DNA from: Pomacea canaliculata
Taxonomy: Eukaryota; Mollusca; Gastropoda; Architaenioglossa; Ampullariidae
Direction of reading: 5' to 3'
NCBI RefSeq assembly: GCF_003073045.1
Contig: NC_037592.1
Coordinates: 9,204,007-9,268,006 of the forward strand
Length of the DNA: 64,000 bases
The translations under genes were made by a program, and so were the position numbers. Position 1 is the stretch's first letter; each line of letters begins with the position of its first letter. Shown one piece after another: positions 16,844 to 52,312 of the stretch. Under the pieces are notes generated by a model. The model saw only the letters and a list, made by a program, of their open reading frames with translations. It made no database searches and had not been told where the DNA came from.

Positions 16844-19800
16844 CTACAGAGACAGATCAAAAAGAGAGGGGTATTGGGAGGAAAGTTGGCCGGAACCAGG
16901 GTTGCCTTCCATTCCTCCGAGCCTCGTTTTGAGTGCTGCGAGGACGTCAGGGTACTTGCTAGCGACATCTGTCGTCTCCAGAGGATCTTCTGTGAGAAGA
17001 AATAACAAAATTAGTCGGTTAAAAATAGAAGCAGACTTGTGTTCTAAAGAAATTTCTAGCAAAATTGTTCATCCATACTTAAAAAGATTTTTTAAAATGG
17101 ACTCTTGCGTATATGCAGGTATCATGATTTAAAATGAACATATATACTTCTTGTAAAAAAAAATATTGTATAAACAGCCATCAGATTACAACACAACCAA
17201 ATAATAACATCAGGACCATTGATGTTGAAGAGACTGTAGCTGTGAGGCCAGGCTACGAAATCTTCCTTCTCCGTCACAACATTAGCAAGCTGCGGGGGTG
17301 GGTACCACCCGCTTTGATTGCCTGGCGACCCTTGGATCAGTTTCCAGTCGCCCACCCTGTGGCGAGAGCAAAAGTGATACACGTGACCAAAACGTCAGCA
17401 AGACGCACTGCTACGTCACTTCCCCATCACACTCCTGCACATGCACACGAGCACGTGCCAAAGACAGCACGAACACGGCCACCCACCATGTCACTTCTTT
17501 GGGTGGATGGAGGTTAGAGAGCGGGTGGGAAGGTCAAAGTGCAAGCTACCTGATGGCGGCGTTCTGATTGATTTCGTCGATGTTGTAGACAAACTCTGTT
17601 CTAGGACTTGCTTTGTCGTTGACGATGGCATCCCACTGACTGACCCCATCAATACCAGAAGCTTTCGAAAACACACAAATATAGACTATAATGACCAATC
17701 CGCTTTATAACTGAGTTTTTAAAATTTTTGTCAACGTTTATGTTGCAGTACTCATGCTGATTTTAAATAAGTGCATGCACCCTCTGAAGACAGTATGTAG
17801 ATTGAACAGCAGTCTTATTAGTCTTACGACAACGGAATGAAAGTACCCCGACATAGATGTTTGTACTTCATACAGACTAGTATACCCTGAATCAGTCCAG
17901 ACAACTTACGAGTTTCTCCCCCGGCGAGTGTCATGAATGTTGGAAACCAGTCTACAATGTGCATTAACCTGTAGGTAAAGACAATGTTGTTATGTGGCAG
18001 ATATATATATACACAGTAATATATACATATACAGTACATAATTTATAATTTTTATGCATTCTATAATTCATCATTTGATATTTTGAGTTTCCTGTCCTGT
18101 TCTAGTCGTCATCGCACGTGCATACAAAAGCAGACGATCAGAAACAGAGATGGATGTATCAGTACCCATTATAAGTAGTTCCTGTCTTCTTGAAAAGATT
18201 TTTGCTGTACAGAAGTCCTTTTCCCCGAGTACCACCCTCCCAGAGTGTACTCTTGGCCCCTCTCAGAGGCCAGTTGCTGGCCCCTTCCGTGGGGTCTCCA
18301 CCATTCTAAAATGAAATTTTGAATCGTATTGGAAGTAGCTATTTGCTCACTTCTACTATGTGTGCCTAAAGTTACACTTTTTAATTTATTGGATTGTTAA
18401 CAGGTAAGTTATATTCCTTTATGTCGCCAACAAACATTTAGATGGTTAGATTGTTGCTGTAATGTAGTCTCCAATAGTGCTACACAAAGATACAAGTAGT
18501 ATTTGTAAACAAATCTTAAATGTTCTCTTTAAAAAACCTTTTCCATATTCGAAACTTGTGCTTTTGCTAATGAAAGTACAGTACCAAAGGAATAAAGTGC
18601 GGTGAACAGTACTCACATCTGCAGTGAAGACCAGCAACATGTTGTCTGTGTAGCCCCGCCTCTCTAACACCTCAGTTATATTTCCAATGGCTTCGTCCAT
18701 GGCGGCCAGCATCCCTGGTCATGGCCACAAACACGCCAATAGATCAATGATTTAATTAATAAGTTTCAGAATTAAATAAAGTTAATAACACCCTCTTTAG
18801 TGGATACAATGAATACAATGCGTGCTTGATGCATATTTCAATTTCACAACAATTATAAATATATAAGTCTAAATTATAAGTGTAAGACGAAATACTGACA
18901 ATTCAGGAGGTAAACTAAATAAATATTTTCAATAAAATTTTTTATTTTATGGACATAGAGGCTTGTCTACTTTTTTGACGGCTCTGAACAAATCATTCGA
19001 AAACATGAAAATATGTTTTTATGGAAGTCGATTATGTTTACTTACCGCAGTATGTACGTCTGTTGGCGTCCTTAATGTGGGAGCAATAGCTTTCTTCGTA
19101 TATTGCAGGCACCTGAAAACAAATTCACTTCTTATTGTTTTAGGGACTGCATTACTACCGCATTACTCTATAATTACCTTTCACGTCTGCGCGCTTGCGT
19201 AAACATACATTCAAACTGAATACCAGAGGCTGAATATCTGTGGGTTATATAGCTAATTTGTGAGAACAGTTTAAAAAAAACTGAATTGTGTTTACCTCCA
19301 ACGGATAATGGACGGCCTGGAAGGCCAGGTACAAGAAGATTGGTTGAGAAGTATTGTGCTCTTCAAGAATTTCTTGCGCACGGCGAGAAAATGCAAACTG
19401 CACAGATGATAAAATATGATTTGTCAACAACAACATGGTCACTACATTATCAACAACGTGGTCACTACATTGCCAGCTCAACAACTCTATATCTTTCTTT
19501 TTTCTGCCCTTCGTTAACAGTCACTTAAAATATACTGTAATTATAGTCATTAACGGCTGACAATAATGACAGACACTTAGTCACACCACTATATTACCAT
19601 TCATACAACACAGCTGTACCACCAGATAATATCAAATTACACAAGTCACTGTCTAAATTTGTGCTATATCTCACAAGTCAATACTACAAAGAACTAACAA
19701 GTTTCCACTGTAAGAGTGATCGTCTTACGGAGGCAAAGAGGCTCCATCCTGTCTCCATGTTAATAATAACAATTGCCCTTACAATGTCCTTATTTGTCTT

Positions 19801-22192
19801 GAACCAACATTTCTACAAGCAAGTAGTTCTATATAAAATGGCCAGATGCAGGAAAATGTAAAATACTTACCGTGGAGTACACTCCCGAGGCGTTCTTGTC
19901 CACCTCTTCATTAAATCGAAAGTCGAGGGCTTCCTCTAAAAAAGACAATTTAAAATACTGAGGGTGTTTGAGGAGTAGGATATACTACTGTAATCACTGT
20001 GATCGGCGTTGTAAAGGTTCGATTATTTCCAAATTAGACTATTTAAAAATCAGTTCAATTGGAAACAGAAAGTGTAGAGACAAGAAAGGGTAGATTAACG
20101 GTCACAATGTTAACATTGTTTATTGTTTGCTTCCGTACAATCTGTACGTTTTAATATAAAGGTGTAGCTGCTTCTATATCGTGTAGCAAAATAAAACCTT
20201 ACGGTGTTCGTGGTTGTAATAATCTTCATCAGCGTTGTAATAACCATAGAAACTGTCGAAACCACGAAATCTCGGTGTGTACTTCCAGTTGCAAAATCCA
20301 AGGTGCCATCTATTTTTTTGATAAGAAAAAAAGAAATGGCATCGAAAAATATTAAATATCTGTCAACATGAAGCCATCGTCCATTTTGCCAATTGTCGCC
20401 AAAATGTCATGAGACATTCACCAAAGTGTCTGTCACTACCAGAAAAAGAGTAAAGGTATAAAGTGGAAGAACAATAATCACATGCGGCCAACATGCACTT
20501 TTGTGATTGACATGTCATGTGCGAGCGTGATTCGTCAGTCAAATGGCCCCAACGCAGACAATGTCAGTATTCTGTTCTCACAAACGTACACGACGCCGAC
20601 ATTGAGTTTTACGTCCACCCAGACGGTCGCCGTTGACCTACGACCTTAGCCTTTCCTCAGCGCGTGCGTCTTCGAGGCGCGTGACGTACTCACTTGCCAA
20701 TCGCGTGAGTTGAATACCCGACGTTCTTCAGAGCTTGTGGAAGGGTCGTGAGGTTTCCAGGTAGAAATGCCTTCTGCATCGGAAGAATGACGATGTGCTG
20801 AAAATTTTGAAAAAAATCACTTGCGGATGGCAAGTCAGTAGCTGTCAAAGATTTCTTGTAGTCAAAAAGAATGAGCGAAAAGAGCTTTACCCGTTTGCCA
20901 ATATTTGTATTTATCTGTGTACTTGTTTGTCCCTGTGAAGGTTTGATTTTTTTGAATGTGTTCTTGACATGGTATTGAATCAACCAATCAAACAGTCAAT
21001 TAGTATATAAACACAAAACATGCTTTGCTGTCCAGTAAAGGGTGAGACATTAATTATGAGAGACTTGAAAAATAATTATCCCTATCGTCCCTCATCACCC
21101 CACGTTTGAGCTTTAAGAAGATTTGACATTCTACCCGGTCTGTTAATTAAAACTGTACATTTATCTAGATTGACTGGTACAGTTGTTGTTATGTTTGTAA
21201 ACCTACTTGTAGTCCAGTGTGGAAGGGGAAGTAACCAGACATCAGCGCACTTCTTGATCTGCAGAGTCATGTAACTGATTATCTCTGAATTATGCCTTAA
21301 CAAAACAAATAAAGGTAAAAATTAAAAAAATAATAATTAAATAAATTAAACAACAAACACAGTAGTGTCCATGAACGCACACATACCTAAGCGAGCGAGC
21401 ATAAAGACAGGATGTGATTGTGTTTACATTTGTTTGTTCTTCATGCGCATGATGTCTTTATTGCTGGCACGGCATAAAAAACAAACAAACAAACAAACAA
21501 TTGATGTCCCTAACTGACAGGTTCTTACGGTGAACACAAAGGTTGTACATAAGAGTTGCCCAGGATAATTCCATTCTGTGCCAGATGGTACAGGTTTGGG
21601 GAATGCAAGTTCGGATCCTCCCAGTTCACATCGGCCCAACCTGAAGAAGTTAGGAACCGTAACAGAACATTCCAGATTGACCTTTTGCCATTTATCAATG
21701 GTGGCTTATCGACCTAAATGGATTTTTTCGGTCTTATAACATTCCACGGAAAAGCGAGACAACCTAAAAGGACGGTAAATTGAATGATGTAGTGTAGTTA
21801 ATGAGACTCACTGTTTTAATCATGAGCAAACACAAGGAAACAGACTGGACTTCCCATACAGGACTTGCTTGCCACCACTCGACAAACCTAAGAGCCTATT
21901 ATGTGTCTATTCTTTTTAATGACTACAACTGAAGGACTAGAACATCTAGTCTCCAGCTGGTTCCAAAGATAGGATAAAGGAAGATGTTGCGTATTTTGAA
22001 CAATGGATGCTATGCCTTTGCTTACTGAAATCTCTCAAAAGAAACTTATTTGACCACATGCTTACCTAGATCATCAGCGATGATGAAGATGATGTGAGGA
22101 GGACTTGAAGCCTGAGGTTCTGAGTGGACAGACCATATCGAGAACAAAAGTACCGCCACGCACAACAGCGACCTCTGGCGGCCACCAGCCAT
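16844..22192 (-). CDS. Arylsulfatase B-like sulfatase 2 (14 exons, aberrant C-terminus)
   Basis: Same enzyme family and exon plan as copy 1. Exons: 22066-22192, 21529-21640, 21207-21258, 20694-20797, 20203-20309, 19871-19935, 19296-19397, 19046-19112, 18617-18714, 18166-18305, 17910-17968, 17550-17661, 17217-17356, 16844-16989. Total 1431 nt, 476 aa. It has a signal peptide ([13 protein letters not shown]), [18 protein letters not shown] with the formylglycine Cys at residue 78, [14 protein letters not shown], and ADNGG across exons 9/10. All donors are GT. In the last exon an extra G (CTCGGAGGAATGG, where copies 3 and 4 have CTCGAGGAATGG or a close form) shifts the frame, so the protein ends SLFDLSL instead of ...WSPGWC. 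Even the unshifted frame diverges after the Pro-Asn stretch, so the C-terminal tail has truly drifted. The catalytic core is complete. Confidence 0.87.
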
Positions 22193-23641: not shown

Positions 23642-26600
23642 TTAATCGTGTGCGTGAGGATAGATGGGATAAATATATTCAGCACCACCCAGGACTCCAG
23701 ACACCCCATAGTTTTGAGGATCGGCGAGGGGGTCATCAGGAGGAAAGTTTGCTGGCACAAGCGTCGTCTTCCACTCCTCCAGCCTCGTTTTCAACGCAGC
23801 AAGCACGTCAGGGTACTTGCTGGCAACATTATCCATTTCTAGAGGATCTTCTGTTAATAGAAACATAATATGTTTGATTAAAAAGTTCAATCCATAAAGA
23901 ATCTTTTGCAAGTAAACAATGACTCAAATAGTTCCATAATCATGCTTTGGTCGAAATGCTGATTTTTTAAATGATATCATTTCTTGCGCATCACAATGTT
24001 TGCAATAAAGTAATAAATAAATAATACATTAATTAATTAAAGCATTAATCATAAATGTCCGAACCATGTGTAACTTTCAGGTGTGTTGTTGCGTTTATCT
24101 TTATGTGTATAGTATAATATGTTTATTATTCCCAGTAAAAGAACTAATTTAACATTTCGCCACCAGATTAGAAGATACAAACCATTTATGTTAAACAAAC
24201 TATAGTTGTCAGGCCAGGCTAGGAAATCTTTGCTCTCCATCACAAAGTCAGCAAGATGCGGAGGTGGGTACCACCCGCTCTGATTGCCTGGCGACCCTTG
24301 GATCAGTTTCCAGTCGCCCACCCTGTGGTGAGCAGAGAAACACGAGACACGTGACCAAAATGGCGACCCGTGGACGCGCTTCTGATTTTCGTACACCTAG
24401 CTTGCATCCACAGGTACATAACTGCACGCACACCTGACTGCCTAAAACTACCAAACCCGACCATCCAACCCAAGCGACTGTTAGAAAAAGGAATGTGGAA
24501 GTTCGGGAGTTGAACAGAGAATGGACTGTAAAGGGAGAGCACTCTTCCTGATGGCGGCGTTCTGATTAATTTCGTCGATGTTATAAACAAGTTCTGTCCG
24601 GGGACTTGCTCCGCCGCTTAGGATGGATTCCCACTGACTGACCCCGTCAATACCAGGAGCTTATCAAATACATAAACAAAATGACAATTTAGACATAAAC
24701 GTGGTCTTACTGTCATGATAATAATAATAAACAGGGCCGTGCTTAGGGGCAGGCAGACGAGGCATCTGCCTAGGGCCCCGCACATTTCATTAAATAACAA
24801 CCGTGGCGATCGTGGTGTCAAGGGCCCCGCACATACCCTATGCCTCGGGCCCCGCGGGGGGTAAGAACGGGCCTGATAATAAATGTAAAATTTGTTAAGC
24901 GCATAAAAGCAATTCATATCAGTTCTGTTCCTTCTAAAGGATTAAATGGTCCTTAAATCTAAAGACTTTATTTAATGGCTCATAAATAAATAAAGGCGCC
25001 CACAAATGCGTCTCTTATATATTCTATTAATGACAATTCTTGTGCTTTGTTTTGACAGCTCAAATGTCTGATTGTCAACTTAAGAATAGATGTAAGGAAC
25101 TTATCAAGAACATATCGCAGACATTTTTGTGTTCCACAGTCATAAAAAGAAATAAAATTTCAAGAATGGATTTAGAGAGTATGTTATATTTAAAATACAG
25201 TCAGCTTACGAGTTTCTCCGCCGACCAGTGTCATGAATGTTGGAAACCAGTCCACGATGTGCATCAACCTGACCACAGACAGAAAACTACCACTTGACAA
25301 GATTGGAGGTTGTTTTATCAATATGTATGTCTGTTTGTTTAATGTATGTATTGCTTGCCTTCATAGCGCTCAGGTATGTGAAAAAAAAGGCATGCACACA
25401 CATCGGCTGACAGACATACACAGATTTGCGGTCTTGCATACACAAACATGCACACAGACATGGGTGCCCTTGTAATAAAAGCACCTGCACAACAAACAAC
25501 ACGAGGGATGTTACCCGTTGTAAACAGTTCCTGTCTTTTTAAACATGTTTGTGCTGTACACAAGTCCTTTGCCCGGGTGCCTCCCTCCCACAATGTGTTT
25601 TTGGCTCCTCTCAGCGGCCAGTTGCTGGCTCCTTGAGTGGGATCTCCGCCATTCTGACAAGAAATTAATAATGTATCTTTTGTTGTCAACATACAATATA
25701 TATATACACTCTTTAAAACTTAAAGTTTATACTATCTACAAAGAAAACCAATGCCATGCAACGCACTATAAACACTTTTGATCTAACACCTAGGTCATAT
25801 TTATTTATTACTTTACTGTAAAACTTTACTTATAGTTATAGCGATTCCAGTAAAGTTTTTCCTTCTTTCGAGCGTCTGTTTCATTGACTTTGACTAGAAT
25901 GTTGAAATTGTGTAAAAATAGATAAAAGGTTCATTCGCACTTCAAACATTAAGGGTCAGATTTTGTTAAAAATTTACACTAATCTTAAATAAGTGTGTTT
26001 CGGCATTTTCTAATGGGCCTATAATCCAAATGTTTGTCGAAATTAACCATTATTGACATACATACATCTGTGGTGAAGACAAGCAACATGTTGTCTGTGT
26101 AGCCCCGCCTCTCTAACACCTGAGTTATATTTCCGATAGCTTCGTCCATGGCTGCTAGCATCCCTGGTCATGAGCAGAAATAAAGTATGCTAAACTATTA
26201 GGGTAGGCAGTAGTATATGTTGATTAACGATAGAATTCTAAAAATACGGGAAGCTATCAGAACTGTCTGAAGTTTAACAAATTCACAAACTCTATAATCA
26301 AATAACACTTTATCGTACCACAGTATGTCCTCCTGTTGGTGTCTGTAATGTGGGAGCAAAAGGTTTCTTCGTAGAAATCAGGCACCTGAGAGCAGAAAAA
26401 ATATTCCTCATTTTTGTAGGTCTGTACCAAACACACACACACAGACATATATGTAAAACACCCGTTAATGCTTTCTTTGATATTGTGAGATTATTTTGTT
26501 CATGCATTTTATTTCCTTGATTACACCATTAATAAAAACAAGACGATGTACATTTAAAGGTTTCACAATGATGTGCCCACGTGTCTACCTGTAAATGCTG

Positions 26601-27559
26601 TATACCTACCTCTAGTGGAGAATGGACGGCCTGGAAGGCCAGGTACAGGAAGAGAGGCTGAGATGTGTTGTGCGCTTCAAGGATGTCTTGTGCACGGCGA
26701 GAAAATGCGAACTAAAATAAATATTAAAATGATGTTAGCATAAAGATATTATTATCTACGGCGCTTTTGTTGTTAGTCTTCTCATCATTATCGTCAATAA
26801 CATGTCATCGTCATCACTTTCCTCACCACCCTCATCTTGTCTTACATCCCCACTCATCTTTTTTTCTCCCCAGTGCCGACTGTCAGAAACAGAACTAAAT
26901 AGTTAGTCGCTCATTTCTAGCGATTATCATTACTACCACACATCACAATAACAAGACTGTTGTTTCAGCAACACAGTCACAAATATTTTAAAGTTTGAAA
27001 TCAAAGATTTTACATCACAGCGATTTTAAGCCGTAGACGTCTAAATATAACTCATTCTTCTCTTAATAATCTTCCTCATCATCAGAGTAATAAGGCAAGC
27101 TTGCTGTTAATGAAAGCTTTTCAGAGGAAGTTGTAGGAAATGCAGAAAGTGAACACAATCTTTCCAATGTTCAGACCGTAGGAAACGGAGAGTGCTTACC
27201 GTGGAGTAGACTCCTATAGCCTTGTCCTCCACATCTTCGTTGAACCGGAAGTCCAGAGCTCCTTCTAGAATAATGACAATTAATAATAATCAGCTTAAGA
27301 TCGAGTTCGTCGGGATGCACTGCTGCTGTTATTTTTATTGGTAGTGATATTGTTTCTACAGGTGGTGCTGCTAGAAATAATACTGCTACAAGTGCTGCTA
27401 CTACAGGTATATTACAGTGTTGCTACTTGTGATGTTACTACTTGTGCTGCTACATCTCAGCCATCCTTTATATTTTTGTTATTGTATTTTATATTGGGCG
27501 ATGTAAATAAGAGCAAAGTCTTACGAGTGACTCGATTGTAATAGTCCTCATGGCCTCAC
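23642..27559 (-). pseudogene. Arylsulfatase 3, 3' part (exons 6-14 plus a scrap of exon 5)
   Basis: Exons in order: partial exon 5 at about 27524-27559, then 27200-27264, 26610-26711, 26319-26385, 26066-26163, 25515-25653, 25210-25268, 24548-24659, 24183-24322, 23642-23850. They encode the second half of an ARSB-like sulfatase ([46 protein letters not shown]). Signs of decay: exon 10 is 139 nt, not 140 (one base lost after ACCCGG); the exon 12 donor reads GA (CATCAG|GAAGAG) where sister genes have GT; and a base lost near the end replaces ...WSPGWC by a longer tail ending YPHAHD. Exons 1-5 lie 7.3 kb away at 34834-36243, beyond the protease A block. Exons 6-14 are otherwise full length and well conserved, so the inactivation is recent. 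Confidence 0.85.
24732..24875 (+). mobile_element. Non-autonomous hAT-type MITE, GC-rich family 2
   Basis: A 144-bp element from CAGGGCCGTGC to ACGGGCCTG with a perfect 8-bp duplication ATAATAAA on each side (24724-24731, 24876-24883). It lies in an intron of arylsulfatase 3. It is closely related to the element at 30800-30977. There is no coding capacity. The 8-bp duplication and CAGGG end indicate hAT. Confidence 0.87.
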
Positions 27560-27629
27560 TTTGGTGAATAAACAAAGTATTTTTGGTTTATATAGTTTGC
27601 TTTATTGAAAAACAATGGTCAGTGGGAGG

Positions 27630-28060
27630 GTAGGCAGTAGTATACGTCGATTAACGATATAATTCTAAAATAAGGGAAGCTATCAGAACCTTTATCTTAC
27701 CACAGTATGTCCTCCTGTTGGCGTCTGTAATGTGGGAGCAAAATGTTTCTTCGTAGAAAGCATGCACCTGAGAACAGAAACAAATTCCTCATTTTTGTAG
27801 GTCTGTACCAACACACACACACACACACAGTGACAAAGACATACAAACATGCACACACACATACAACTGCATATCTACATGTATAATGCAAGCACATTTT
27901 TCACGTAGTCTGTACCAAACACAAACATATATACATATAAAACACCTGTTAATGCTTTCTTTGATGCTGTGAGATTATTGTACTCATGCATTTTATTTCC
28001 TTGTTTACACCGTTAATAAAAACAAGAAGATGTATTATGTAAAGGTTTCAAAATGTTGTG
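27630..28060 (-). repeat. Duplicated arylsulfatase exon 8 with flanking introns
   Basis: This stretch repeats 26197-26580 of arylsulfatase 3: same intron words on both sides and a second exon 8 at 27701-27767 (67 nt, intact acceptor CAG and donor GTAAGA, encoding [19 protein letters not shown]). The CA tract in the downstream intron is longer here. The other exons expected around an exon 8 are missing, so this is a rearranged fragment at the edge of the inserted block. Confidence 0.85.
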
Positions 28061-28200
28061 CCCAATGTATCAGTAGCTGGCTTCTTTCTTTTGGAACAGC
28101 GAGGACTCGACACTTCCAAACTACAACACATTATAACTTTTTTGAAACTGTAATTGTCACTAAGCTAAATTCCTAAGTGCATAACTTTAGTTTGTGTTTT

Positions 28201-28240
28201 AGTGCTGCGGCAGAACTACCACTGACTTTATACCTTCACA
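28201..28240 (-). promoter_or_regulatory. Orphan arylsulfatase promoter copy
   Basis: Matches the upstream region of arylsulfatase 5, including TATAAA (minus; TTTATA at 28227-28232) and the CTGCCGCAGCAC start region. Downstream of it no arylsulfatase first exon follows: homology stops at 28201. If still active it would transcribe non-coding DNA toward the duplicated exon 8. Confidence 0.5.
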
Positions 28241-29287
28241 TTTGTTTCTGTTTCGATAGAAGTCAATGACCTGCCAGCATCATTAGTGAACGTTAACACA
28301 CGCTGGTGTTTTGAATCTGGTTATTCACCCTAGAGGTGCACCACACATGGCGCTGAATATAACTGAGGAATTTAGTTCCCACATTTCACGATGACTGGCA
28401 AGAAAACACGAGAGTGTGTGTCAGTTTTTGCTGCTTCATTTTTGGATGAAATTCTGTAACCTGCCTATATCATCCTCAAACTTTCATAGATAAAAAAATA
28501 TATAAAACTGCGTAAATGATTGCAAGCTTTGTGTGAATGAATGTATACATCACTCGTCTGGCGATCATAGTATGGTACAGAAAAAGCTGGTGGATGTCAT
28601 TGTAATATAAAATGTTAATGTAGGTAAGAAGATTCTATTTTAAAAATCCCTCATGGCGAATGTACCAATGTGCGTGCTGTGTCAGCAGTCATGGCCCCAT
28701 ACATGGCGCGTGTGCAGCAATAACTTGTGCAATAAACTTCGGTGTATGCTTCTTAACTTTCGACCTTTACAAAAATACACCAAAAAATAAACAAACAACA
28801 CTTAGACTTATATTTCAACATATAAAATAACGAAAAATGTTGACAATAAATACATGTCCCTATAACAAAACAAGTTGTTTACAGACACAACGCGAGACTA
28901 TTGTTGATACGGTCACGTGGCCTAACATTAAAGGAAAACTACAGTCGCGGGTTGTGCAGGAAGTGATACACTTGTACCTTTAGTGGGTGTTATCTTCATG
29001 TTATTATCAGCCTCATTATGAAACATTTGAGTGTTTGGTCTATACTATTTTGCAAATACCTTTTTTTAGTATACTTTCAGTATGGGCATGATCTTTGTTG
29101 TTGGCATTGTTTAATTCTAAGAATAATCATGGGGTTATTTTTTTTGTTTTGTTTTTACTCAGTATAATAAAAGAGAACGGAAGCGCCAGTGGCAATGGAA
29201 AGGAGGCGATAAAAAAAAAAGTGTCAACAAAGCCCACTCGAGACTAACAACTCTGTGAAAAGTGCCAAGCGTGTTTTTTAAAATTGT

Positions 29288-29293
29288 TTTATT
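29288..29293 (-). terminator. Polyadenylation signal AATAAA (minus), protease A
   Basis: TTTATT on the plus strand, 83 nt beyond the protease A stop. It is conserved in position in protease B. Confidence 0.65.
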
Positions 29294-29375
29294 GTATAAT
29301 TCCGCACAGACACAGGATGGCAGAACGTTGAAACAGTTTCAACGCCATCGCGACTGTCGTCGGAGTGAGCAGAGC

Positions 29376-32300
29376 TCAGCCCATGCCGGAGGCTATGGTA
29401 GAGATCCAGGGCAAGTACGAGCTCACACGGGTGTAGGCAGTCGGGTAGCTAAAGAAGGGATTGAAAGACGAAATGTTATATATTTCCTTTAGTATAATTT
29501 GATGTTCATATAATTCTCATGTTATAAACATGAAAACGTGATCCATCACTAGATATTATTTTTAATATAATTTTTTTTATATTTTAAATACTAACACGAA
29601 TTACAATCACGATTACCTGAAGACGTTCTTCTATGGTTTTAAATTATTAGTAATGTTAGTATTTACGCATAAGGAATAAGTGATCCAACCTTTGATCGCT
29701 AAGTAGAAATTAATCGCAACATACATATAATCAGTGCACATATAGATATATAGCTATTCCCAAATTTCTTAGACCTCTAATATTAACTTTAATGAGGTTA
29801 ATCTGTAAAGGGATTCTAAAGGCAAAATAAAACTGCTTAGAATCGTGTACAGAGTAGGATTCACTTGAATCTCGTCTATTTATAGGTGTGTTCATGTGGA
29901 AAACGTTGAAGGTTTGTAGTAGAATGTTGTGTTTAATAAGAGAAATTACGCGAAACTTTTTTTGCTTCCACGAAGTCTCGTTCTCCGTCACGTGACCCTA
30001 TGACGTGTGGTTTCCATAGTGAGAACCATGCCTCGAGAATGTGCTGCACCCGATTGAAACAAAAAGATGGAAAAGATTCAAAATTTTCTTTTCATCAGTT
30101 TCCGAAAGACAGAGCCTTACAAGCCTGACACACAGAGTGCGTCATACGAATAAACAGACGACGTCAAATCTTCGCAATGACCTCAGACACTTTGATCCTG
30201 TGCATGTGACGTCACAAGGAGACTGACGTCACAATAAGACTCCTCTGCTTGACCATCTCGGGAAGCTATCGTGGTTACTCGGCGGAAGGACACAAGGGTC
30301 GATTTCACTGGATTTTTTCAATTTTTATAAACATCGGCAACCGAAATAGTGCTAATAAGTGGTAATTAAGTGAGAAACGAATCCTTTATTTCTCCTGTAT
30401 CGCTCTCGTGCTCTGTAATTGTAACTAAATATATTTTTGAAACGGTTGACCGTCGCCAGAGCCTTATCACAAGCCTTGAGTTTCCCTTTAAAAAGGTGCA
30501 TTTTATATTAATTTCCATACACACGGAATGAAGCCACTCACTTGGTCAGACATCCGCTGGCCACGAAGCTGGCCAGACCCACCACAGTGTTACCAACGCT
30601 GGCAGGGCCGCCACTGTCACCCTGATTTTGAAATTAAGGATTACAGATTATAATGAATTATTTTCAGAAAAGCACGTGGAGATTGGCCTCACATTACTGA
30701 CGTCACTGAACGCCGCAGCCAATCCGATTGCTTCTAGCAAATGCTAATTCGGCGTTGCCCAATCAAAAAGCCTTTTGCTCATTTACACGAGAGAGGACTC
30801 AGGGCCGTGCTTAGGGGCAGGCGGACGAGGCATCTGCCTAGGGCTCCGCGCTTCAAGGGGCCCCGCGCTTTTGATTGACATGTGACTTTAGATCCCAACT
30901 AAAACCGTGTGATCGTGGCGTGAGGGCCCCGCACATGCCCATTGCCTCGGGCCCCGCGGGGGCTAAGAACTGGCCTGAGAGGACTTGACAATTTGCAATT
31001 GCCTAGGATGTTTAATGGTCTTTCTTTTGCACAACCAAGGCTTAACATTTTAAGAATTAGCAAAATGAATTCAATCAATTTATTTTATAATAATTTTGTA
31101 TTGGGGGCTAACCTTTAAAAGTCCAGCTTACTGAGAATTCGAACAATTCTTTCAGAAAAGGTTCTCAAAATGTACTGAACTCTGATTCTGTCACAAACAT
31201 TGCATTAATAATAACAGTCGAACTCGCATTCAGTCTTTAACGTTATGCAGGACAAATAATTCGACAGAACTTAAGTGTGTTAGCTGCATACATCAGGGTA
31301 GCTGTTGATTATATTTCTGACATAATGGCGCCTAGGGTGGCCATGTCCATATATGATATCTCAGACTCATGCAGCATACGTACATTGCATCCTCCGTAGA
31401 TTCTGTCACCCAGGTCCTTGACACAAATGTGGTAGGCGGCGCTGATGGTGTTGCCAAAGTAGGTGCGGCACTTGGTGTTGGACAGGACCTCCACATCGCC
31501 TCGCTTCAGTCTGCTGGGCTCAGTGCCCCCACCTGAGCAGTGGACATGTGTTTATGGCTTTATTTGGCAGGAAACTGTTTCCCCCTTTTCGGTATGTCTA
31601 ACTGTTAAAGGAGAAATGATTAATGAAAAATTGAACAAACTAAAATACTCAGAGAGAAGTGTGTGTGTGTGAGAGAGGACATAAAAGTATACTATGCAGA
31701 AGTGAACATTGAGTTTGATCATGCGATGACTATTATTAGCTGTCCGCGCACCACTGTTAGGCTGGGCTGATAAAGGGAAATGGACTATGTAGATGCCTAG
31801 AACCAGGGCCGCCGAGAGCCAGCCCGGGCCCCGGGACAGACCTCTCCGGGCCCCTTGTACTTGTAATCGTAAATTATTTTCCCAGTATATAATGTATGTT
31901 TACAATTCGAATCTCAATAAGAAGAAGAAGAAAAAATCCACTGACCAAGGCCGGGCCCCCTTGACAGCCGCGGGCCCGGGTACACCAGACCCCCCTGTCC
32001 CCCCCTCTCGTCAGGCCTGCCTAGAACTACATCCCTAGTAACAAAGACCATTTATCACCAAAGATGTGAAACAGTAGATCAGTAGGCACTACTCACCATA
32101 CAGGCGACCCCAGCCAGTGATGACGGCGGACTGGCCAGCGTAGTCAGAGGGGGACGGAAGGTTGGGGGGCTGGCAGTACCTGTCTAATGTCAAGGATGGG
32201 GACAACGCCAGCACCGCGATGTCATTGGGGAATCCGCTTGTGCTTGGACTGTAGCTGGGATGCTGAATAGAAAATACAAAAATGTAGTCTTGTCTGACTC

Positions 32301-33809
32301 TATGTGTGTAGTTTAGCATGTCTGTAAGAATAAAAACAACACACACACGTGTGTGTGTGTGTGTGCGTGCGTGTGTGTATTATATATATATGTGTATGTG
32401 TGTCCATTCGCTCGGATTAAATAGAAAACACAAAAAAAGACATATGAAACCCTAACCCTTCCCTCAAAATAAAATTGTGAATTTGAAATGTAAGGGGACG
32501 TAAGCACCATCAGAGTAGAGTTATCTGGAATCACACGTACCACAATGACAACGATGACACCAACCGTCTGTCGCCATGACTCGGATGTATGGATGTTGTG
32601 AGCTCCACACATCACTTGGAACCTTGAACTTGAAACAAAATCAAGACGTCATATCTAAACTTAAAAAAGCGGAAATTTTCCATAATATTTAAGGCACGAA
32701 AAACAGTAAAACTTGCCTCGCCTGTCTAGGAGTAGGTTTCTTAAACCCTCCGTTGTCTCGCACGCTCTCTTTCCTCTGATTCTTCACTGGATGTATAAAT
32801 ATTACAAGTTTATGTGTAACTCTTACGTATACAATTTTTATATATATTTATGTGAAGCCTTTATTTACAATCTTCATGTCCAACTTATTTTTCACTGTTT
32901 GGGGAGAGAGTGATTGTATGAAGACTTGAATGTAGAATGTCGATGTCTAGCTTTGTCTACTGTAGAAGGAGACATGACTATGTGACAGCATGTAGACAGC
33001 TGTGTGCGGCAGGTTCTTACGCAGCAACTCCAGCCACACAGTGAGCAGCTGTCAGCGCGAAGTTGTTGTTGTAGACCACAGCTCCACAGATGTGCGAGCC
33101 ATCGCGCTGCAGGGACAGTTGCCATGGGAACGAGTTAATTGGGTTCACCACGTAGCCATTGACAATGTAGTTGTCGATCTCCGCGTCTGAGGTTTAAAAC
33201 AAAACAAAGTACATGCCGGTAGTTGTCTTCAGGTAATTAATCATTAGTGGTGAGATAAATGTAGTGAGTATGCTTCGCACGCACGCACCTTATCAAAAAC
33301 AAAATAAACACATTATCGACATTCGGTTAATTCACTTTCTGAATAGAAATAATAGTTTGATTGATTTAGTAAAGACTTTGGAGTAATTCATTCTACAAGG
33401 TCAAAAATATGAATCTAAGGGAAATGAGTGAAACTCTGTCTTTCTCTGAGACTGACTGTTCTTTCGCTTCGTTTTTTGACAATTCTTCATTGTTCTTTGG
33501 TTCTTTTCCTCTTGTTTTTTTTTCTTTTTATGTTCATTTGTCTAGTGTTTGATAATATTTTTTATCGCTTTCTTTCATTTTTGTACCTTTTTTTTTTTTT
33601 CTTTCGCTTTTCCACAATTTAGCTACTTTTTTATGAGATTTGGTGTTGACATGTTTTCTTTTTTTTTCTTTATAGTTTTCTTCTTCACAATTCTTTTTCT
33701 GAGTGATGACATCGTTATCAGGAACAGGTAAAGATGCTTTGTACAGAAGGACATACTTACTAGCGGCCTGTAAACACAGGAGAGTCAGCGAAAACAAAAC
33801 AAACAACAT
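29376..33809 (-). CDS. Chymotrypsin/elastase-like serine protease A (intact, 7 exons)
   Basis: Secreted S1-family endopeptidase. Exons: 33761-33809, 33021-33186, 32541-32622, 32097-32262, 31384-31532, 30542-30621, 29376-29448. The sum is 765 nt, 254 aa in one frame. It has a signal peptide (MLFVLFSLTLLCLQAA), a short propeptide ending DNY, and the mature N-terminus IVNG. The triad is His in LTAAHC, Asp in NDIAVLAL and Ser in GDSGGP; cysteines flank the His and the pocket as usual. Residue 189 (chymotrypsin numbering) is Gly, with Val216 and Thr226, so neither the trypsin Asp nor the chymotrypsin Ser; the last two are elastase-like. Cleavage after Tyr to release IVNG is unusual, as most zymogens use Arg/Lys. 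It lies inside the arylsulfatase 3 locus on the same strand, with its own TATA box and poly(A) signal. Confidence 0.92.
30028..30128 (+). pseudogene. THAP-type zinc-finger N-terminus relic
   Basis: A start MPRECAAPD is followed, after one lost base, by a frame reading KDGKDSKFSFHQFPKD. This matches the opening of THAP domains (M-P-x-x-C-A-x-x-x-C ... FHxFPKD), a C2CH DNA-binding module found in P-element-like transposases and in host regulators. The rest of the domain (the later Cys and His) is not seen. It sits in the roughly 700-bp segment present in copy A but absent from copy B. Two perfect CRE sites follow at 30207-30214 and 30224-30231, and an E-box-like CACGTG precedes it. It is either a transposon scrap or a displaced first exon. 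Confidence 0.55.
30207..30231. promoter_or_regulatory. Two perfect CRE palindromes
   Basis: TGACGTCA occurs twice, 17 bp apart start to start, in the copy A-specific insertion. The pairing is unlikely by chance in AT-rich DNA. Function is inferred only from the CREB/ATF consensus. Confidence 0.45.
30800..30977 (+). mobile_element. Non-autonomous hAT-type MITE, GC-rich family 2
   Basis: A 178-bp relative of 24732-24875 with the same CAGGGCCGTGC and GGCCTG ends. A perfect 8-bp duplication AGAGGACT flanks it (30792-30799, 30978-30985). It lies in intron 5 of protease A. The internal part is longer than in the other copy. Confidence 0.87.
31804..32019 (+). mobile_element. Non-autonomous hAT-type MITE, GC-rich family 1
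   Basis: A 216-bp element, CAGGGCCGCC to CAGGCCTG, flanked by a perfect 8-bp duplication CCTAGAAC (31796-31803, 32020-32027). It lies in intron 4 of protease A. The paralogous intron in protease B (around 53616-53640) lacks it, an empty site. It is shorter in its core than the 4772-5070 copy. Confidence 0.88.
32345..32404. repeat. (TG)n/(TA)n microsatellite
   Basis: An alternating TG tract running into TATATA, in intron 3 of protease A. It is contracted in protease B. Confidence 0.85.
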
Positions 33810-33832
33810 GGCGACGGCCCTCGTGCGCTCGT

Positions 33833-33868
33833 CACTGAAGCAACTCGAGACAACCGAAGTCTTATAAA
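33833..33868 (-). promoter_or_regulatory. Core promoter of protease A (TATA + initiator)
   Basis: On the minus strand, TTTATAAG (plus 33861-33868) lies about 30 nt upstream of TCAGTG (plus 33833-33838), a match to the invertebrate initiator TCAGT. The ATG follows at 33809, leaving a 5' UTR of about 27 nt. The same elements and spacing occur in protease B. Confidence 0.65.
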
Positions 33869-34330
33869 GGTGTTCACTGTTCTCCACCTGTTCAGTTCTC
33901 ATTCTCGACAGTCCTCGAGTTATTTGTAACATAATCTGTGACAGAGAAAGAGGTTTCACTGTAAGTCAAGTAATTGTAATAATTACAAGTTTATTGCTTG
34001 GTGAGAGGCTGCGAGAAGTGAAGGAGAGAGTTGGGTGCACGTGATGAGTGTTTATGAAATATTGCGGTTATATGGATGTAGTGATGAGTCAGTGTATTTG
34101 TAGGGAATGTTTTATGTTGTGAGATGATTTTCAGTATTCCACAAGGCTCGGTTCCAGGACTGGTTTTCCTGATCATCGCCGCTGTCGACATTCATCAAAC
34201 AGCATGTAGTCCATCATCATCATCATCTTAATATAAAATACGAAAGATAAACAATTGAAACAATCTTCCCAGCACACTGGCATTTACATTGTATAGTATT
34301 TTAGTCTCATAACAGTGCACAATACAATTT

Positions 34331-34351
34331 ATATATATATATATATATATA
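34331..34351. repeat. (AT)n microsatellite
   Basis: A pure TA run upstream of protease A, followed by GT-rich low-complexity sequence to about 34660. Confidence 0.85.
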
Positions 34352-34833
34352 TCTCATTATATATAAGATATTGACCCTATAAATATATGTAAAACACAAA
34401 TAATGTGAGCGCGAGTGTATGTGTGCGAGAGAAAGAGACAGACTGTGTGTGTGAGAGTGTGTGTGTATGTGCGTTCCTGTTAGTGTTACATGTTCACAGC
34501 TTCGTTAATATCAATGTGAGTGCCTTAATAAAGCTTTTGTTTCGGGGCTATGTACTTGCTGAGCCTCGCAAATGTCTTGTGCTTGATTGTTTGTTTGTGT
34601 GTGTGCGCGTGTGTGCGGTGTTTATGTGTTCTTTTGTGTGTGTGCGCGCGCGTCCGCACTCAGCATGTGCATGTTTTTCTGTGTCTGTTTGCACTTATTT
34701 TATCTCTCCTCTATTGTAACATGATTATAATAACAGTTTTTACGACAGTAGTTATGTTGATGATTATAGTGGTGATGATGAAGATTGCAGCGAATATCAA
34801 AAGCAATATTTGTAAATAAGAGCAAAGTCTTAC

Positions 34834-36243
34834 GAGTGACATGATTGTAATAGTCTTCGCCGGCGTTGTAGTAACCATAGAAACTGTCAAAACCACGAAA
34901 TCTCGGCGTGTACTTCCAGTTGCAGAAACCAAGGTGCCATCTGTTTACAAACAACAACAGCCACAATAACAACAACTAACATCATGCTATTACAAAAATT
35001 AAAAGCGGTGTTGATAAAATATAGAAAAACAAATCGTTTGTGAAAAATCCTACGAGATGTTTCTCCAAGGACAACTCAGTACTCAAACAAAGACCTTTGA
35101 TGCAGGAAACGTGTGTGCTCAGTGTCAGTGGCAGTGGCAGTGTCCTTGCACCATAAGTAGTGCAGAGATGACATGTTAGCAGAATGTTACTTTGATAGTG
35201 CAATGTTTCAAAATTATCATACAGCTGAAACATTTACAAGTAATGACATCTCTATTTTTCCTGTTTATACCACGGTCACACTTTTCGAGCGGTGTGACGT
35301 GTGACGTGCGAGGGGTGACGTGTGACATGTGAAGTGCTCACTTGCCGATCGCGTGCGTCACATATCCCACTTGCTGCAAGGCCTGTGGAAGGTAGAAAAG
35401 CTGGCTGCATCGAACGAATGATGAAGTGCTGAAACATTTCGAGTCATTTAGTTAGTGGATGACTTTTTAATTGTTTTACTTGTGCTGACATTGTTGTTTT
35501 TACTACTACGAAGCCTTCTGCTAGTGATGTTGCTCAAGCAGGAGCAGCTGTACTGGGTTCTGTCAGTCACACCCACCTGCAGGCCAGTGTGGAAGGGGAA
35601 GTAACCAGACATCAGCGCACTTCTTGATCTGCAGAGTTATGTAACTTGTTGTTATCAGAAAAAAACGTAGGCGCAATAATTATTATTATTAATAACACAC
35701 AGCTGTATACACAAAAAGTAGTCTGATTTTCTCAGCTGATATGGTAATTGCTAAAATATAATCTGTCTGCACTTGTTTATTTGTTTATGACTGACGAACA
35801 TCTGAGTGACGAGGGATGTGTTACTTGTGTAAGTGACGGACTTACGGTGAGCACACGGGCTGGACATACGAGTTGCCGAGAATGATTCCATTGTGAGCCA
35901 AGTGGTACAGGTTTGGGGAATGCAAGTTTGGATCCTCCCAGTTCACATCGGCCCAGCCTGGAGAAGTTACAAACATTCAAACATTCATATGCCAGGCCAG
36001 TAAACCGTTTTGTTATTCATTCAGTCAACATTAGCTAAGCTGCATGTGTGTGTTTGTGCGTGTGGGCACTGCGTCTGCTTCTTTTTATGTAAAAAACACA
36101 TTTTGCCAAATGCTTACCTAGGTCATCAGCAATGATGAAAATGATGTGAGGAGGGTTTGAAGCCCGAGGTTTGGTGTGGATGCACATCATGATGGACAAC
36201 ACACCGCCATACACAACAGCGACATGTGGAAACTGTCAGCCAT
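34834..36243 (-). pseudogene. Arylsulfatase 3, 5' part (exons 1-5)
   Basis: Exons: 36118-36243, 35846-35957, 35577-35628, 35342-35428, 34834-34940. They encode the catalytic N-terminal half ([51 protein letters not shown]). Exon 1 is 126 nt rather than 127, breaking the frame in the signal-peptide region. Exon 4 has lost 17 nt (87 versus 104) across the segment that reads ENVTTL in copy 4. Exons 2, 3 and 5 are intact with good splice sites. The matching exons 6-14 are at 23642-27264; the protease A block lies between, and the end of exon 5 with adjoining intron (about 48 bp) is present at both edges. Divergence from copies 2 and 4 is modest, so the break is recent. Confidence 0.85.
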
Positions 36244-37725: not shown

Positions 37726-37978
37726 AGCAACGACAACAACATAGAAATATCTGATTTTCAAAACTTACGGACTGTTTTTCATTATCACTGACTGTTTAAA
37801 TTTGTGTTAGTGTGTTACAGTCTTTCAACAGCGTTGCGAATGCAAGTCAAATATAAAATATCTTTCACCTTTGCATGTCATGTAGAAAAATACTTTCATT
37901 CTGCAATGAATTAAGCAAATTGTTTCAAAGCAATTATAATGCGCGTGACAGAATATTATTTCCTAGCGCGTGTTGTGT

Positions 37979-40900
37979 TCAGCACCACCCAGGACTCCAC
38001 ACACCGCCATAATTCTCAGGATCGGCGAGTGGTTCATCAGGAGGAAAGTTAGCCGGCACCAACGTTGCCTTCCACTCCTCCAGCCTCGTTTTGAGCGATG
38101 CAAGCAGATCCGGGTACAGGCTGGCCACGTCCTGCATCTCGAGAGGATCTTCTGCAGTACAGAACAAAGCAGCATCTGATTATTCGAACAAAATCACTCA
38201 TGTATAATTGCATGGTTAGCTCTGACTGATTGAAGCATTAAAGGATATTAGAGCTTGTGTCTATATACAAATAATCTACTCAGACAGTCCAGTTTTGCAA
38301 TGGGATGAGTAAACAGTTCCTATGGCATAATCAGTAGCAGTCAGGGGACTGGACTTGAGATCTTTTGGAAAGTGAGAATATGGGAATTTATTATTCATTC
38401 ATGTACTAATTTAAAATGTCCCCACCAGAGTAGAAGATACCAACCATTTATGTTAAACAAACTATAGTTGTCAGGCCAGGCTAGGAAATCTTTGCTCTCC
38501 ATCACAAAGTTAGCCAGCTGTGGCGGGGGGTACCACCCGTTCCTATTACCCGCCGAACCTTGGATCAGCTTCCAGTCGCCCACCCTGGTACGAGAACAGA
38601 GAGAAGGTAGTCGAGACCAAAATGGCGAATGAACACGTTGCTGCAGGTCTTTGCCATCACCTAGCAACTAAACCAACACACACACACACACACAGATATA
38701 CATGCACCTAGACACAACATACCCTCTGGGTGGGAATGAGGGTCACTGTCGGTAGGGTACAAAGCTATGGTAGAGCAAGGGAGGGGGATACAGTGGAGAG
38801 CACTCTACCTGATGGCAGCGTTCTGATTGATTTCGTCGATGTTGTAAACAAATTCTGTTCTGGGACTTGTTCCACCGTTCACCAAAGATTCCCACTGACT
38901 GACTCCGTCAATGCCAGGAGCTTAGAAGGTTTACAAAATGAAAATAAAATGAGAGATAATCTTGATTTGTAAATAAATGCATGCTTATTCTTTTTAGGTG
39001 TCTTTATTCACTTTTTGCGTGTATTCTATCTGTTTCACATAAATTATGAACATTATCCTTAAAACAGTGATGTGGACTTGAAGTATGAATGATGTTGCAT
39101 GTTCATAATGACTGTCCATCACTGGAAACAGACTTAGGTACTGACATGAGGTATTAAGGAAAAGATTTGTTATTTAAATTTTAAAACACTTTAAGTGATT
39201 ATAGGAGTGCACGAAAACGAAAGAAATATTTTATGTTCTGAATAAAGAATGTGTTGAGCTTTTCTTTATAAGTATGAGTGTTTCGAAGACGATGGTTCTA
39301 ATTACCAATTAGACATAAGATTTAAAGATGTCTACCTAAGTATATCGTAACTATACCTAAAGATGGGTTGAAAACTTACGAGTTTTTCCCCCGACGAGTG
39401 TCATTAATGTTGGAAACCAGTCCACGATGTGCATCATCCTGACCACAAAATAAACAACAGCCTTTAAAGTCTGCAGGTAGCCAACGTCGCCTTATTTTTC
39501 TCTTTAGTGTCCTGTTTCTTTCCCTGGATCTCTCAAACAGATTAGCAGAAAGAAAGATGCAAGCAAAGAAAATAATCTTTACCCGTTATAAACGGTCCCC
39601 GGCGTCTTAAACAGATTTTTGCTGTACACAAGTCCCTTCCCTCGAGTTCCGCCCTCCCAGATGGTAGTCTTCGTTCCTCTAAAGGCCAGTTGCTGGCCCC
39701 CTGGTTGGGATCTCCTCCATTCTGTGGAACAGTCGAGAATCAATTACATCCACAGTCCTTGTGAATGTACGAACTGTTTGAAATCACAGTTCACAGTGTG
39801 AAGTAGTAAAGCCATGCAGTGCATTGTATCAAATGAAACAAGAAAGTTCAAGTTGGGCTCTCATTTACTTTTGATATATCTTAAAACTATTTTTAATGCA
39901 TTTGCACATTAATTATATATATGCTCTGTAAGTGTAGTTCTTGACCAAAGAACTACAGGTCGTTAGAAGAAGTGAATATAAATTGCAAGCATAAATCAAA
40001 GGACTACGTGGTCCACCCACGTCTGTAGTGAAGACAAGCAGCATGTTGTCTGTGTAGCCCCGTCTCTCCAACACCTGTGTTATATTCCCAATAGCTTCGT
40101 CCATGGCGGCCAGCATCCCTGGTTACACAGAGAAAGAGGGTTGAACAACTAGGGATAATAGACGAACGAAAACATACTTTCACCTCCGCAAAAATCAGTT
40201 TTGGTCTACAAAACACAGCACATGCAATTGTAGAATATCTCTAAATCAATAAAAACAAGTAGCTCAATACTGTTGATTGGATTTTGTTTTTATATCAGTG
40301 TTAATATTCAATTCTTGATACGGTGAGAAGTCCAACAATAAGAAAAATCGGACTTGGTAACAGTTACATAAAAAAGTGGATAGCTTATGTTGAAATCACA
40401 ATAATTTGATGATCCATTGATGTGCACGTGTCAGCAGTACCTTAGGAACCTTTAAGCACTAGAAGTACTCATTTATTTTCTTTATTTCAAAGAAGTCTTT
40501 AACTGGCTTACCACAGAATGTCCTTCTGTTAGCGTCTATAATATGAGAACAAAAGGTTTCTTCGTATAATACAGGCACCTGAAAACAAAGTTTTTTTCTC
40601 GGTATTTTAGATACTTTATATCTATATTAATATATATTATATATACCACACATAAATCCGAGTTCACATACAAACGCACGCATTCATTTCCAAGAGCTCT
40701 GCTCCATACCTCTAGAGGAAAATGAACAGCTTGAAATGCAAGGTACAGGAAGAGAGGTTGAGATGTGTTGTGTGTTTCCAGGATGTCTTGAGCACGGCGA
40801 GAAAAGGCAAACTGAAATAAATGTCAACATAAATGTATTCATCTCGTCATTGTCCAGGTTAGTATTGTTGCTTGTATACTTCACCTGTCCTACAATTACA

Positions 40901-43634
40901 CATCTCAACCCTTATTCCACTCCTACCTTATTCATCATCATTTAATTGATATTTTAATTGCAAAATCGTAACTGTAACAGCAAAATTGTGATATCATATA
41001 AATCAACACACACGAGGTTTTTTAAATCATGATTTTTGAATTATCATCATATACAGTAATACCTATTCTTGTATATAACCTTTAGATTATTGTCATACAA
41101 ATTAGCACTTAAATTGTTGACTCTGGATGCTAAACTACCATCAACATTGTCATCAGCTGCTGCTGCTGTTGCTGTAGTCGTAATGCAGTTTTTTTTCTTT
41201 GTGTCGTGAATTGAAAGAAAACCCGATAGACACACCAAGTGAAGATAAATAAAGTATACGAATGATGAAGGACGTACTGTGGAGTAGACTCCAGTATCGT
41301 TCATCTCAACGCCTTCATTCAAGCGGAAGTCCAGGAATCCTTCTAAAATTATAGAAGACATGATATTTGAGGAACATTTAGACAAATAACTTTTGTGATC
41401 AGAGTTGTAAATGGTGAGATGACTATTAAAATATATTATTCAAAACTCTTTTCCTATTAGCAACATTTTCCCCATAGACATTTTTTGTTGTTCCTGCACA
41501 GAAGTTGCAAACAACACTAACAATAATAAGGTAGGAAAAAGAACAATGGGCCTGCACAACTGTATCAACACTTATATATTGTTATTGATATTGATACAGT
41601 AGTAAATACAAAGAGCTCATATCAGTTTTTACTATATTTTGTAAGCACATTTACTCATATATCGCGCAGAGTAAGTAATGAAGACCTTACGGTGCTCGTG
41701 TCTGTAGTAATCTTCGTCTGCATTGTAGTAACCATAGAAACTGTCGAATCCTCGAAATGTTGGCGTGTACTTCCAGTTGCAGAACCCAAGGTGCCATCTA
41801 GGTAAGAAAAAAGTACAGAAAATGCATCATTCAATTAATTATTTGGTGACTTATCTCTTAGAAAGCTAACTCCATATGAGGCATTCTTTGAAAGACTAAT
41901 TACCACTTGCCGCAACTCAGCGTGAATGCAAAGAGGAAACAATTCATTAGAGCGCATTTTTTTCAGTTAGTGCATCGAAAACATGTGTAGTTACAGCATT
42001 TGAGAACCAACCACACGTGCGCAGTCTAAATATTGTTGTAGGAGGAAGCCGCTCAGTGTGTCGACATCAGGACACTAGAGGAACGGACACGATGTCGGCA
42101 TCAGGACACACATTGAGCACACAGTGGACTGGTATTTAGCTTACACAGTCAGAGCACAGTTTCGACAGTGACTCGCGATAAACTTCCTGTTTCCTCTTTA
42201 TGCATGCGCGCGCACCTTCACGTTATGTCACGTGCTCACTTGCCGATCGCGTGCGTGGCGTAGCCCACGTCCTTCAGGCCCTGTGGGAGCGTCGTCACGT
42301 TTTCAGGTAGAAACGCCGGCTGCATCGACCCAATAATCATGTGCTGGAAACAGTTTGTAAAATAGAGACTGAGGGAGAGTCAGGAATATTTTAAAACTTT
42401 CTTGTGATTTTCATGTTTTTTTAATTAATTAATTAATTTATTTATTTTTATATTCATCAGTAACGATGATAATCAAACACGAAAACTAGGGATTGCATAT
42501 GACATTAATATGCAGGCATACTAACATACAACTACATCCTAAAATTAAAAAAAAAAAAACAACCACAACTACCGAGTTTATCAAACCTACCTGCAATCCA
42601 GTGTGGAAAGGGAAGTAACCTGACATAAGAGCGCTTCTCGATCTGCGGAGTTATCGAAACTTCCATCAGTGTTATGATTTCACAAACAACTCACACGTGC
42701 ACTGACTCAAGCATGAATGAAACTATAGCTCACATGCTTCATACTCATTTCTACTTTTTCCATTTACTCGTTCATTCAACTTTCTCAAGCAATGCGAGTT
42801 TCTGTGTTTGATCTTCGGAATTTGTTAATTTTATAATTGGAATTTTTCGATCACTGAAACAACTCAGCTGTTGATGACTGACTTACGGAGAACACAGAGG
42901 CTGTACATAAGAGTTGTTCAGCACTATTCCATTCGTGGCCAGGTTGTACAAGTTCGGAGAATGTAAGTTCGGATCCTCCCAGTTCACATCTGCCCATCCT
43001 GTACGAAAGACTTTTTTAATAATTACACAGAAAAACGTTATTAATTTAAAAAAATTCAATAAAAGAGGAAATGATAAGGGTATGTTGTAAAAATGTCGTT
43101 TGACATATCTCTTACGGCTGATCAAGTTATATCAGAAAAAAGGATTACATTCCACCTAAGCGCCTTTAAACTGTAAATTTTATAAACTGCTGCTTTTAAC
43201 ACATATGCAGGATAGAATAAAGCAGCATAAAGAAAATCTCCATGCATTTAGTGCATTAACACGTGAGAATAATATACCGCTAACGATTATGATAAACTGG
43301 TAATTATGTTTCAGACTTGATAACCGTCAGAACTTCCTAATATTTATTATATTAATGCGTTTTGACATAGAGAATACAGATATAAATATATAATTCAAGT
43401 TTGGCGGAGATGTTCTTTGCGCAAACCTGATTTAGTTTTAGAATTTATATCTTTTCGTTTTTAAGAAAAATGTACTGTGACAGCTGCTGTTAACTTTTTT
43501 TGGTTACCTAGATCATCAGCAATGATGAAGATGATGTGAGGAAGATCTGAAGCCCGAGGTTTGGCATGGATGCAGGTTATGGAGGATAAAACTATCACTA
43601 GACAAAACAGCGACTTCGGGAGCTTGTCATCCAT
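37979..43634 (-). CDS. Arylsulfatase B-like sulfatase 4 (14 exons, one frame break)
   Basis: Exons: 43508-43634, 42887-42998, 42591-42642, 42240-42343, 41691-41797, 41278-41342, 40710-40811, 40512-40578, 40021-40118, 39583-39721, 39380-39438, 38809-38920, 38445-38584, 37979-38151. Every exon matches the family plan except exon 10, which is 139 nt instead of 140: one base is missing in GGCCTTTAGAGG, where sisters read CCTCTGAGAGG or similar. As written the frame is lost from there; with the base present the product would be 485 aa. The signal peptide (SLFCLVIVLSSITC), [32 protein letters not shown] and the C-terminal YGGVWSPGWC are all present. Because a single homopolymer-adjacent base separates it from an intact gene, I call it a gene and flag possible assembly error. 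Chosen start: the ATG of MDDKLPKS, which gives a first exon of the family length (127 nt). Confidence 0.82.
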
Positions 43635-51155: not shown

Positions 51156-51200
51156 GGTGAAATTTCTGTAGCAAGTGCTGCGGCAGACCCTACCTCTGAC

Positions 51201-51206
51201 TTTATA
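51201..51206 (-). promoter_or_regulatory. TATA box of arylsulfatase 5
   Basis: TATAAA on the minus strand (TTTATA at 51201-51206), 46 nt upstream of the exon 1 ATG. It is conserved in the orphan promoter at 28227-28232. Confidence 0.55.
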
Positions 51207-52306: not shown

Positions 52307-52312
52307 TTTATT
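52307..52312 (-). terminator. Polyadenylation signal AATAAA (minus), protease B
   Basis: TTTATT on the plus strand, 83 nt beyond the protease B stop, the same position as in protease A. Confidence 0.6.

Follow-up and report, generated by a model that had tools for sequence, protein, structure and literature searches.

How does a protease gene with an open reading frame come to lie inside a sulfatase gene, and what has become of its host? The question is raised by a stretch of the Pomacea canaliculata genome (NCBI RefSeq assembly GCF_003073045.1, contig NC_037592.1, positions 9,204,007 to 9,268,006; 64,000 bp, referred to here as the window, whose numbering we use). The protease gene, PrA, lies fully within one intron of the sulfatase gene S3, on the same strand (33809-29376 inside 34833-27265). 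Our analysis leads us to think it probable that PrA arrived as a copy: DNA spanning the neighboring protease gene PrB and the upstream region of sulfatase S1 was duplicated, in the same orientation, into S3 intron 5, together with a fragment of S3 and a 48-bp duplication of the target.

All 14 exons of S3 were recovered, in order and on the minus strand, by spliced alignment with a home-made aligner. One half of the gene (36243-34834) comprises exons 1-5 (36243-36118, 35957-35846, 35628-35577, 35382-35342 and 34940-34834). The other (27264-23642) comprises exons 6-10 (27264-27200, 26711-26610, 26385-26319, 26163-26066 and 25653-25515) and exons 11-14 (25268-25210, 24659-24548, 24322-24183 and 23850-23642), with exon 12 set by comparison with paralogues. 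Intron 5 occupies 27265-34833 and is 7,569 bp long, confirming the claim of an earlier, sequence-only reading that the two halves are on the same strand, in the right order and about 7.5 kb apart. That reading also described the sulfatase as split and disrupted by the protease. The nesting is real, but the insert falls within an intron, so that no exon is cut and neither exon order nor phase changes: exon 5, which ends in phase 1, is followed in frame by exon 6, and all but one of the 26 intron-end dinucleotides read GT or AG. Intron 5 is present in eight of the ten other sulfatase copies, where it measures 267 to about 870 bp (S1, 272; S2, 348; S4, 267; and S5, 507 bp; outside the cluster, L011, 373; L012, 375; L013, 317; and L016, about 870 bp); it is absent from L014 and L015. 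Both halves match the Pfam Sulfatase domain PF00884 (exons 1-5, E 5.7e-18; an exon 6-10 piece, E 7.3e-19), and a 74-aa piece from exons 10-12 had no Pfam match. Exons 1-5 hold a C-S-P-S-R site, spanning exons 2-3, that fits C-x-P-S-R, which we take to be the sulfatase active-site motif. The closest solved structure to exons 6-10 is 1fsu, an N-acetylgalactosamine-4-sulfatase (E 7.7e-37) and presumably human arylsulfatase B; S3 as assembled lacks the full frame of such an enzyme.

PrA (29376..33809, minus strand) has seven exons (33809-33761, 33186-33021, 32628-32541, 32262-32097, 31532-31384, 30621-30542 and 29448-29376) encoding 256 aa plus a stop. The intact frame had been put at 765 nt; it is indeed open and free of frameshifts, but its length is 768 nt plus the stop. 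All six introns are GT-AG. As the sequence-only reading also noted, the gene has its own TATA box (TATAA at 33866) and poly(A) signal (AATAAA at 29293), both of which it has in common with PrB. By its domain (Trypsin PF00089, E 1.6e-53), PrA is predicted to be an S1-family, trypsin-like protease. Its translation contains TAAHC, NDIA and GDSGGP, which we take to be the motifs of the S1 peptidase His/Asp/Ser triad, and its N terminus, judged by eye only, is hydrophobic. The best solved relatives are the earthworm fibrinolytic enzyme (1m9u, E 1.3e-38) and elastase-type S1 peptidases.

Where did PrA come from? At the protein level its closest relatives are PrB and PrC in the same cluster; the best match elsewhere, on contig C9, is 55% identical over one exon. 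The homology, break points, orientation, splice order and phase of the insert can be read directly from the assembly. A sharply bounded block at 28201..34810 on the minus strand begins 23 bp into S3 intron 5 and carries PrA with the DNA upstream of it, as well as the core promoter of S1. It is homologous to 56377-51174 (51174..56377, minus strand), a locus that holds PrB, whose exons span 55460-52398 and show two frameshifts as assembled, and the region upstream of S1. When the assembly (440,159,624 bases in 24 contigs, as in all our genome searches) was queried with the 3' flank of the block, only two matches were found, the flank itself and the PrB/S1 locus. The source stops 18 nt short of the S1 start codon and 32 nt past the first base of a TATAAA (51206); in the copy this TATAAA lies at 28227..28232 on the minus strand, with the block end 31 nt downstream of its first base. 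The block therefore carried with it the PrA promoter, the poly(A) signal and an apparent sulfatase core promoter, and this last element looks like a candidate promoter facing S3 exons 6-14. Longer introns 4-6 (564, 762 and 1093 bp, compared with 334, 262 and 401 bp) account in part for the greater length of PrA relative to PrB. Two pieces of a probable mobile repeat in PrA intron 4 (31804-32020) match, in inverted orientation, the other side of the window (4771-5070) at 97-98% identity, which makes this repeat more recent than the duplication of the protease. PrA intron 5 (30800-30978) and S3 intron 11 (24732-24876) share another repeat that has diverged further (72% identical).

The remainder of the insert, also read on the minus strand, is composite. 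Next to the block lies a 136-bp stretch (28065..28200) that matched nothing but itself in the genome search and had no more than weak matches across the window and eight fetched regions. It is followed by a copy of S3's own intron 7-exon 8-intron 8 (27627..28064; source, 26579-26200), whose best other genome match is S3 itself; its exon 8' (27767-27701) retains AG and GT and is stop-free. A 77-bp stretch (27550..27626) comes next, with no other match in the genome search and one weak 32-bp match in L013 (E 0.003). Finally, 27502..27549 is a second copy of the end of exon 5 and start of intron 5, identical at 45 of 48 positions to the first (34858-34811). Used as a genome query, exon 5 found 12 places: S3, its 48-bp repeat and the ten other sulfatase copies. 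All traced pieces of the insert share one orientation.

This anatomy suggests how the insertion might have occurred. In a single event of break repair with template switching, the copied DNA would have taken in all of PrB, including promoter, introns and poly(A) site, and extended to near the likely S1 start site (56377-51174); the exon 8 fragment of S3 would have been copied alongside, and the 48-bp duplication left at the target. Unequal crossing-over offers a different route: a tandem duplication from PrB to S3 exon 5, followed by a deletion from the leader of the second S1 into exon 5 of the second S3, which would remove the duplicated S1, S2 and S3 exons 1-5 and fuse PrA to exons 6-14. 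The common orientation of all pieces within a tandem cluster agrees with this route, and the junctions (34811/56377 and 28201/51174) sit where it would place them. A weak conflict between trees of exons 2-5 and 6-13, described below, could at least be reconciled with two halves that differ in descent. We nevertheless regard crossing-over as unlikely: a deletion ending 48 bp from the end of the duplication would be a coincidence, and an extra event would still be required for the exon 8 fragment that precedes the exon 5 copy.

We also considered whether the arrangement might be a mis-assembly of tandem copies. Tandem families are hard for assemblers, and the Pomacea genome paper calls this genome highly heterozygous (PMC6129957). 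But the window contains no N, and the same paper gives about 60x PacBio coverage, a mean read of 10.1 kb and a contig N50 of 1.07 Mb (PMC6129957). The inserted copies differ from their sources by 6-15% and are therefore not collapsed or doubled reads. On the strength of this divergence, the gap-free sequence and the PacBio data, we disfavor mis-assembly and think it very improbable.

The same divergence dates the insertion. In noncoding sequence, PrA and PrB differ at 436 of 3807 sites (about 11%), with 54 indels; the 3807 sites are the well-aligned part of 4244 ungapped noncoding sites, the rest being excluded, and indels were counted only if flanked by such sites. Differences in the exon 8 fragment (27/334) and the 48-bp repeat (3/48) are not clearly different from this (Fisher p 0.07 and 0.36), as expected if the three pieces moved together, and compatible with one single event. 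Synonymous distances are about 0.66 between S3 and S4 and 0.74 between S2 and S3, implying that the sulfatases had duplicated before the insertion took place. Because donor and target sites are both preserved, along with the two junctions and an internal clock, it can be asked how long the host gene lived after the nesting.

As assembled, S3 is damaged. Exons 1, 10 and 14 are each 1 bp short relative to paralogues; the missing base in exon 1 means that translation from the first ATG terminates at codon 19. At the exon 12 donor S3 has GA, compared with GT in S1, S2, S4 and S5. It is these lesions, not the protease, that disrupt S3, contrary to the earlier suggestion. S3 therefore has no intact reading frame in this assembly, perhaps partly through assembly error, and the three 1-bp deletions and lost donor imply that it probably makes no normal enzyme now. 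The other sulfatases are imperfect too: S2 exon 10 lacks one base, S1 exon 9 has two extra and exon 14 one, and S4 exon 14 is altered.

Did the insertion kill S3 at once, leaving its halves as relics and a protease among pseudogene exons? The four lesions fit such a history, but the rest of the coding sequence appears too well preserved. On branch estimates from the S2/S3/S4 trio (404/407 codons), the S3 branch has a dN of 0.037 (95% bootstrap 0.023-0.051) and a dS of 0.27; a neutral S3 would have added a dN of about 0.06 since the insertion alone. This translates into some 59 nonsynonymous changes that neutrality would predict for the time after the insertion, against an estimated 35 or so on the whole branch (P 0.0006, simple Poisson), and for exons 6-13 a dN of 0.06 was reached in 0 of 500 bootstraps. 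No in-frame stop is seen in exons 1-13, against 2.6 expected, and 1425 coding nucleotides contain 3 indels where about 10 would be expected at the local neutral indel rate (P 0.01). Because of this low dN, the absence of stops and the scarcity of indels, S3 was probably under selection for part of the time since the insertion; this estimate, like the evidence against immediate death, presupposes a clock and uses a single local neutral rate, and it further assumes little gene conversion. We judge the death of S3 upon insertion to be improbable. The duplication model would instead have S3 spliced across its 7.6-kb intron, and under selection for a time, with the transcript having to read through the PrA poly(A) site; PrA transcription would start at the promoter copied with the gene and finish at PrA's AATAAA. 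On this model S3 would now be decaying, as the three deletions and lost donor would indicate.

Several observations weigh against our interpretation. The 136-bp and 77-bp stretches have no traced source. The four lesions mean that, for the sequence as assembled, the notion of a host gene that still works fails. For exons 1-5 minus the signal peptide, a dN of 0.06 is reached in 3.6% of bootstraps and 0.05 in 15.6%, so that neutrality of this part is not firmly excluded by dN. On its own, the lack of stops says little (at rate 0.06, a neutral S3 would show none with P 0.07), and one splice dinucleotide lost, against 3.2 expected if neutral, is not significant (P 0.17). Gene conversion with S2 around exon 13 could have lowered the dN of S3. 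Lastly, S3 groups with S4 in trees of exons 2-5 (bootstrap 77 and 79) and with S2 in trees of exons 6-13 (69).

On the last two points, the final 65 nt or so of exon 13 (24247-24183) are identical in S3 and S2 (S2 exon 13, 38584-38445) and differ in S4, a probable case of gene conversion. In finer trees, exons 6-10 lean to S4 (56), exons 6-12 to S2 (51) and exons 11-13 to S2 (86). The idea that the S3 halves derive from different genes was not upheld; our reading is that conversion near exon 13 produced the S2 signal, with weak support either way.

The protease copies have also diverged. Between PrA and PrB, dN is 0.078 and dS 0.116, indicating weak constraint or fast change. PrB has frameshifts at 54233 and 53797, and PrC one, while the PrA frame is open; the nested copy may therefore have outlived its source, barring assembly errors.

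Because so much turns on single bases, the reliability of the assembly matters. Six other sulfatase loci were run through the same program as S3: L011, L012 and L014 had no frameshift, L013 had one, and L015 and L016 had four each, some perhaps alignment artefacts. At six HSP70 loci, judged intronless from a listing of 58 matches, three frames were unbroken, two were in two abutting frames and one was in six pieces. HSP70 loci broken into abutting frames (C1:13863214-13870090 and 14727105-14728920) are either pseudogenes or uncorrected assembly indels. A TCP-1 control (56 matches) showed no abutting pairs by eye, though this is a weak control. These mixed results mean that 1-bp lesions in the assembly are not all trustworthy, and some of those in S3 could be assembly errors. 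Loss of the exon 12 donor, a substitution, is firmer.

Could the two genes share transcripts? Co-transcription or chimeric S3/PrA RNAs are possible as predicted from phase. When S3 exon 5 is joined computationally to PrA exon 2, the frame stays open through the whole protease; a junction with PrA exon 5 also reaches the normal stop, and junctions with exons 3, 4, 6 and 7 do not. PrA exon 1 joined to S3 exon 6 is in frame across the exons read, 6-9. The carried promoter and phase-matched exons define exact RNA junctions, and automatic annotation could fuse or truncate these genes. That the exon 5-PrA exon 2 splice makes a functional sulfatase-protease fusion seems to us highly unlikely, even though its frame runs to the protease stop: such a phase match arises by chance about one time in three, and the fusion would have no signal-peptide start because S3 exon 1 is frameshifted. 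It is also doubtful, if somewhat less so, that S3 long remained functional as the host of a same-strand PrA, with the locus giving both an exon 5-PrA fusion and 3' sulfatase transcripts from the carried S1 promoter. Under the duplication model, any chimeric or readthrough RNA would be a by-product.

A gene inside a gene is unusual but understandable here. A study of animal nested genes describes them as common, with internal genes typically intronless and on the opposite strand, and its mammalian analysis, compared with flies, suggests that selection purges same-strand nestings (PMC8467205). Like the cases treated there, PrA is contained in an intron of its host; unlike the typical ones, it has seven exons, is on the same strand, and brought its own and a neighbor's promoter through local DNA duplication. 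Interference is documented for human nested genes (PMC3192792) and for H13/Mcts2 (PMC13309782): promoters inside a host gene can bring about its early polyadenylation or exonization. Same-strand nesting is thus of a known kind, and PrA/S3 is a well-resolved new case. Among the papers that literature searches listed, no title concerned this locus, and the word 'sulfatase' is absent from the main text of the Pomacea genome paper (PMC6129957).

PrA and S3 sit in a tandem cluster that combines ARSB-like sulfatases with elastase-like proteases. Its minus-strand order is PrC, PrB, S1, S2, S3 exons 1-5, PrA, S3 exons 6-14 and S4; in the 9.9 kb to each side, both families gave matches at noise level only, and a tRNA scan of the window had no match. 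The paralogues S2 (37975..43634) and S4 (16864..22192), used for comparison, are on the minus strand. Sulfatase S5 belongs to the same cluster and lies on the plus strand; its exon 1 (10073-10179) apparently has a GC donor instead of GT.

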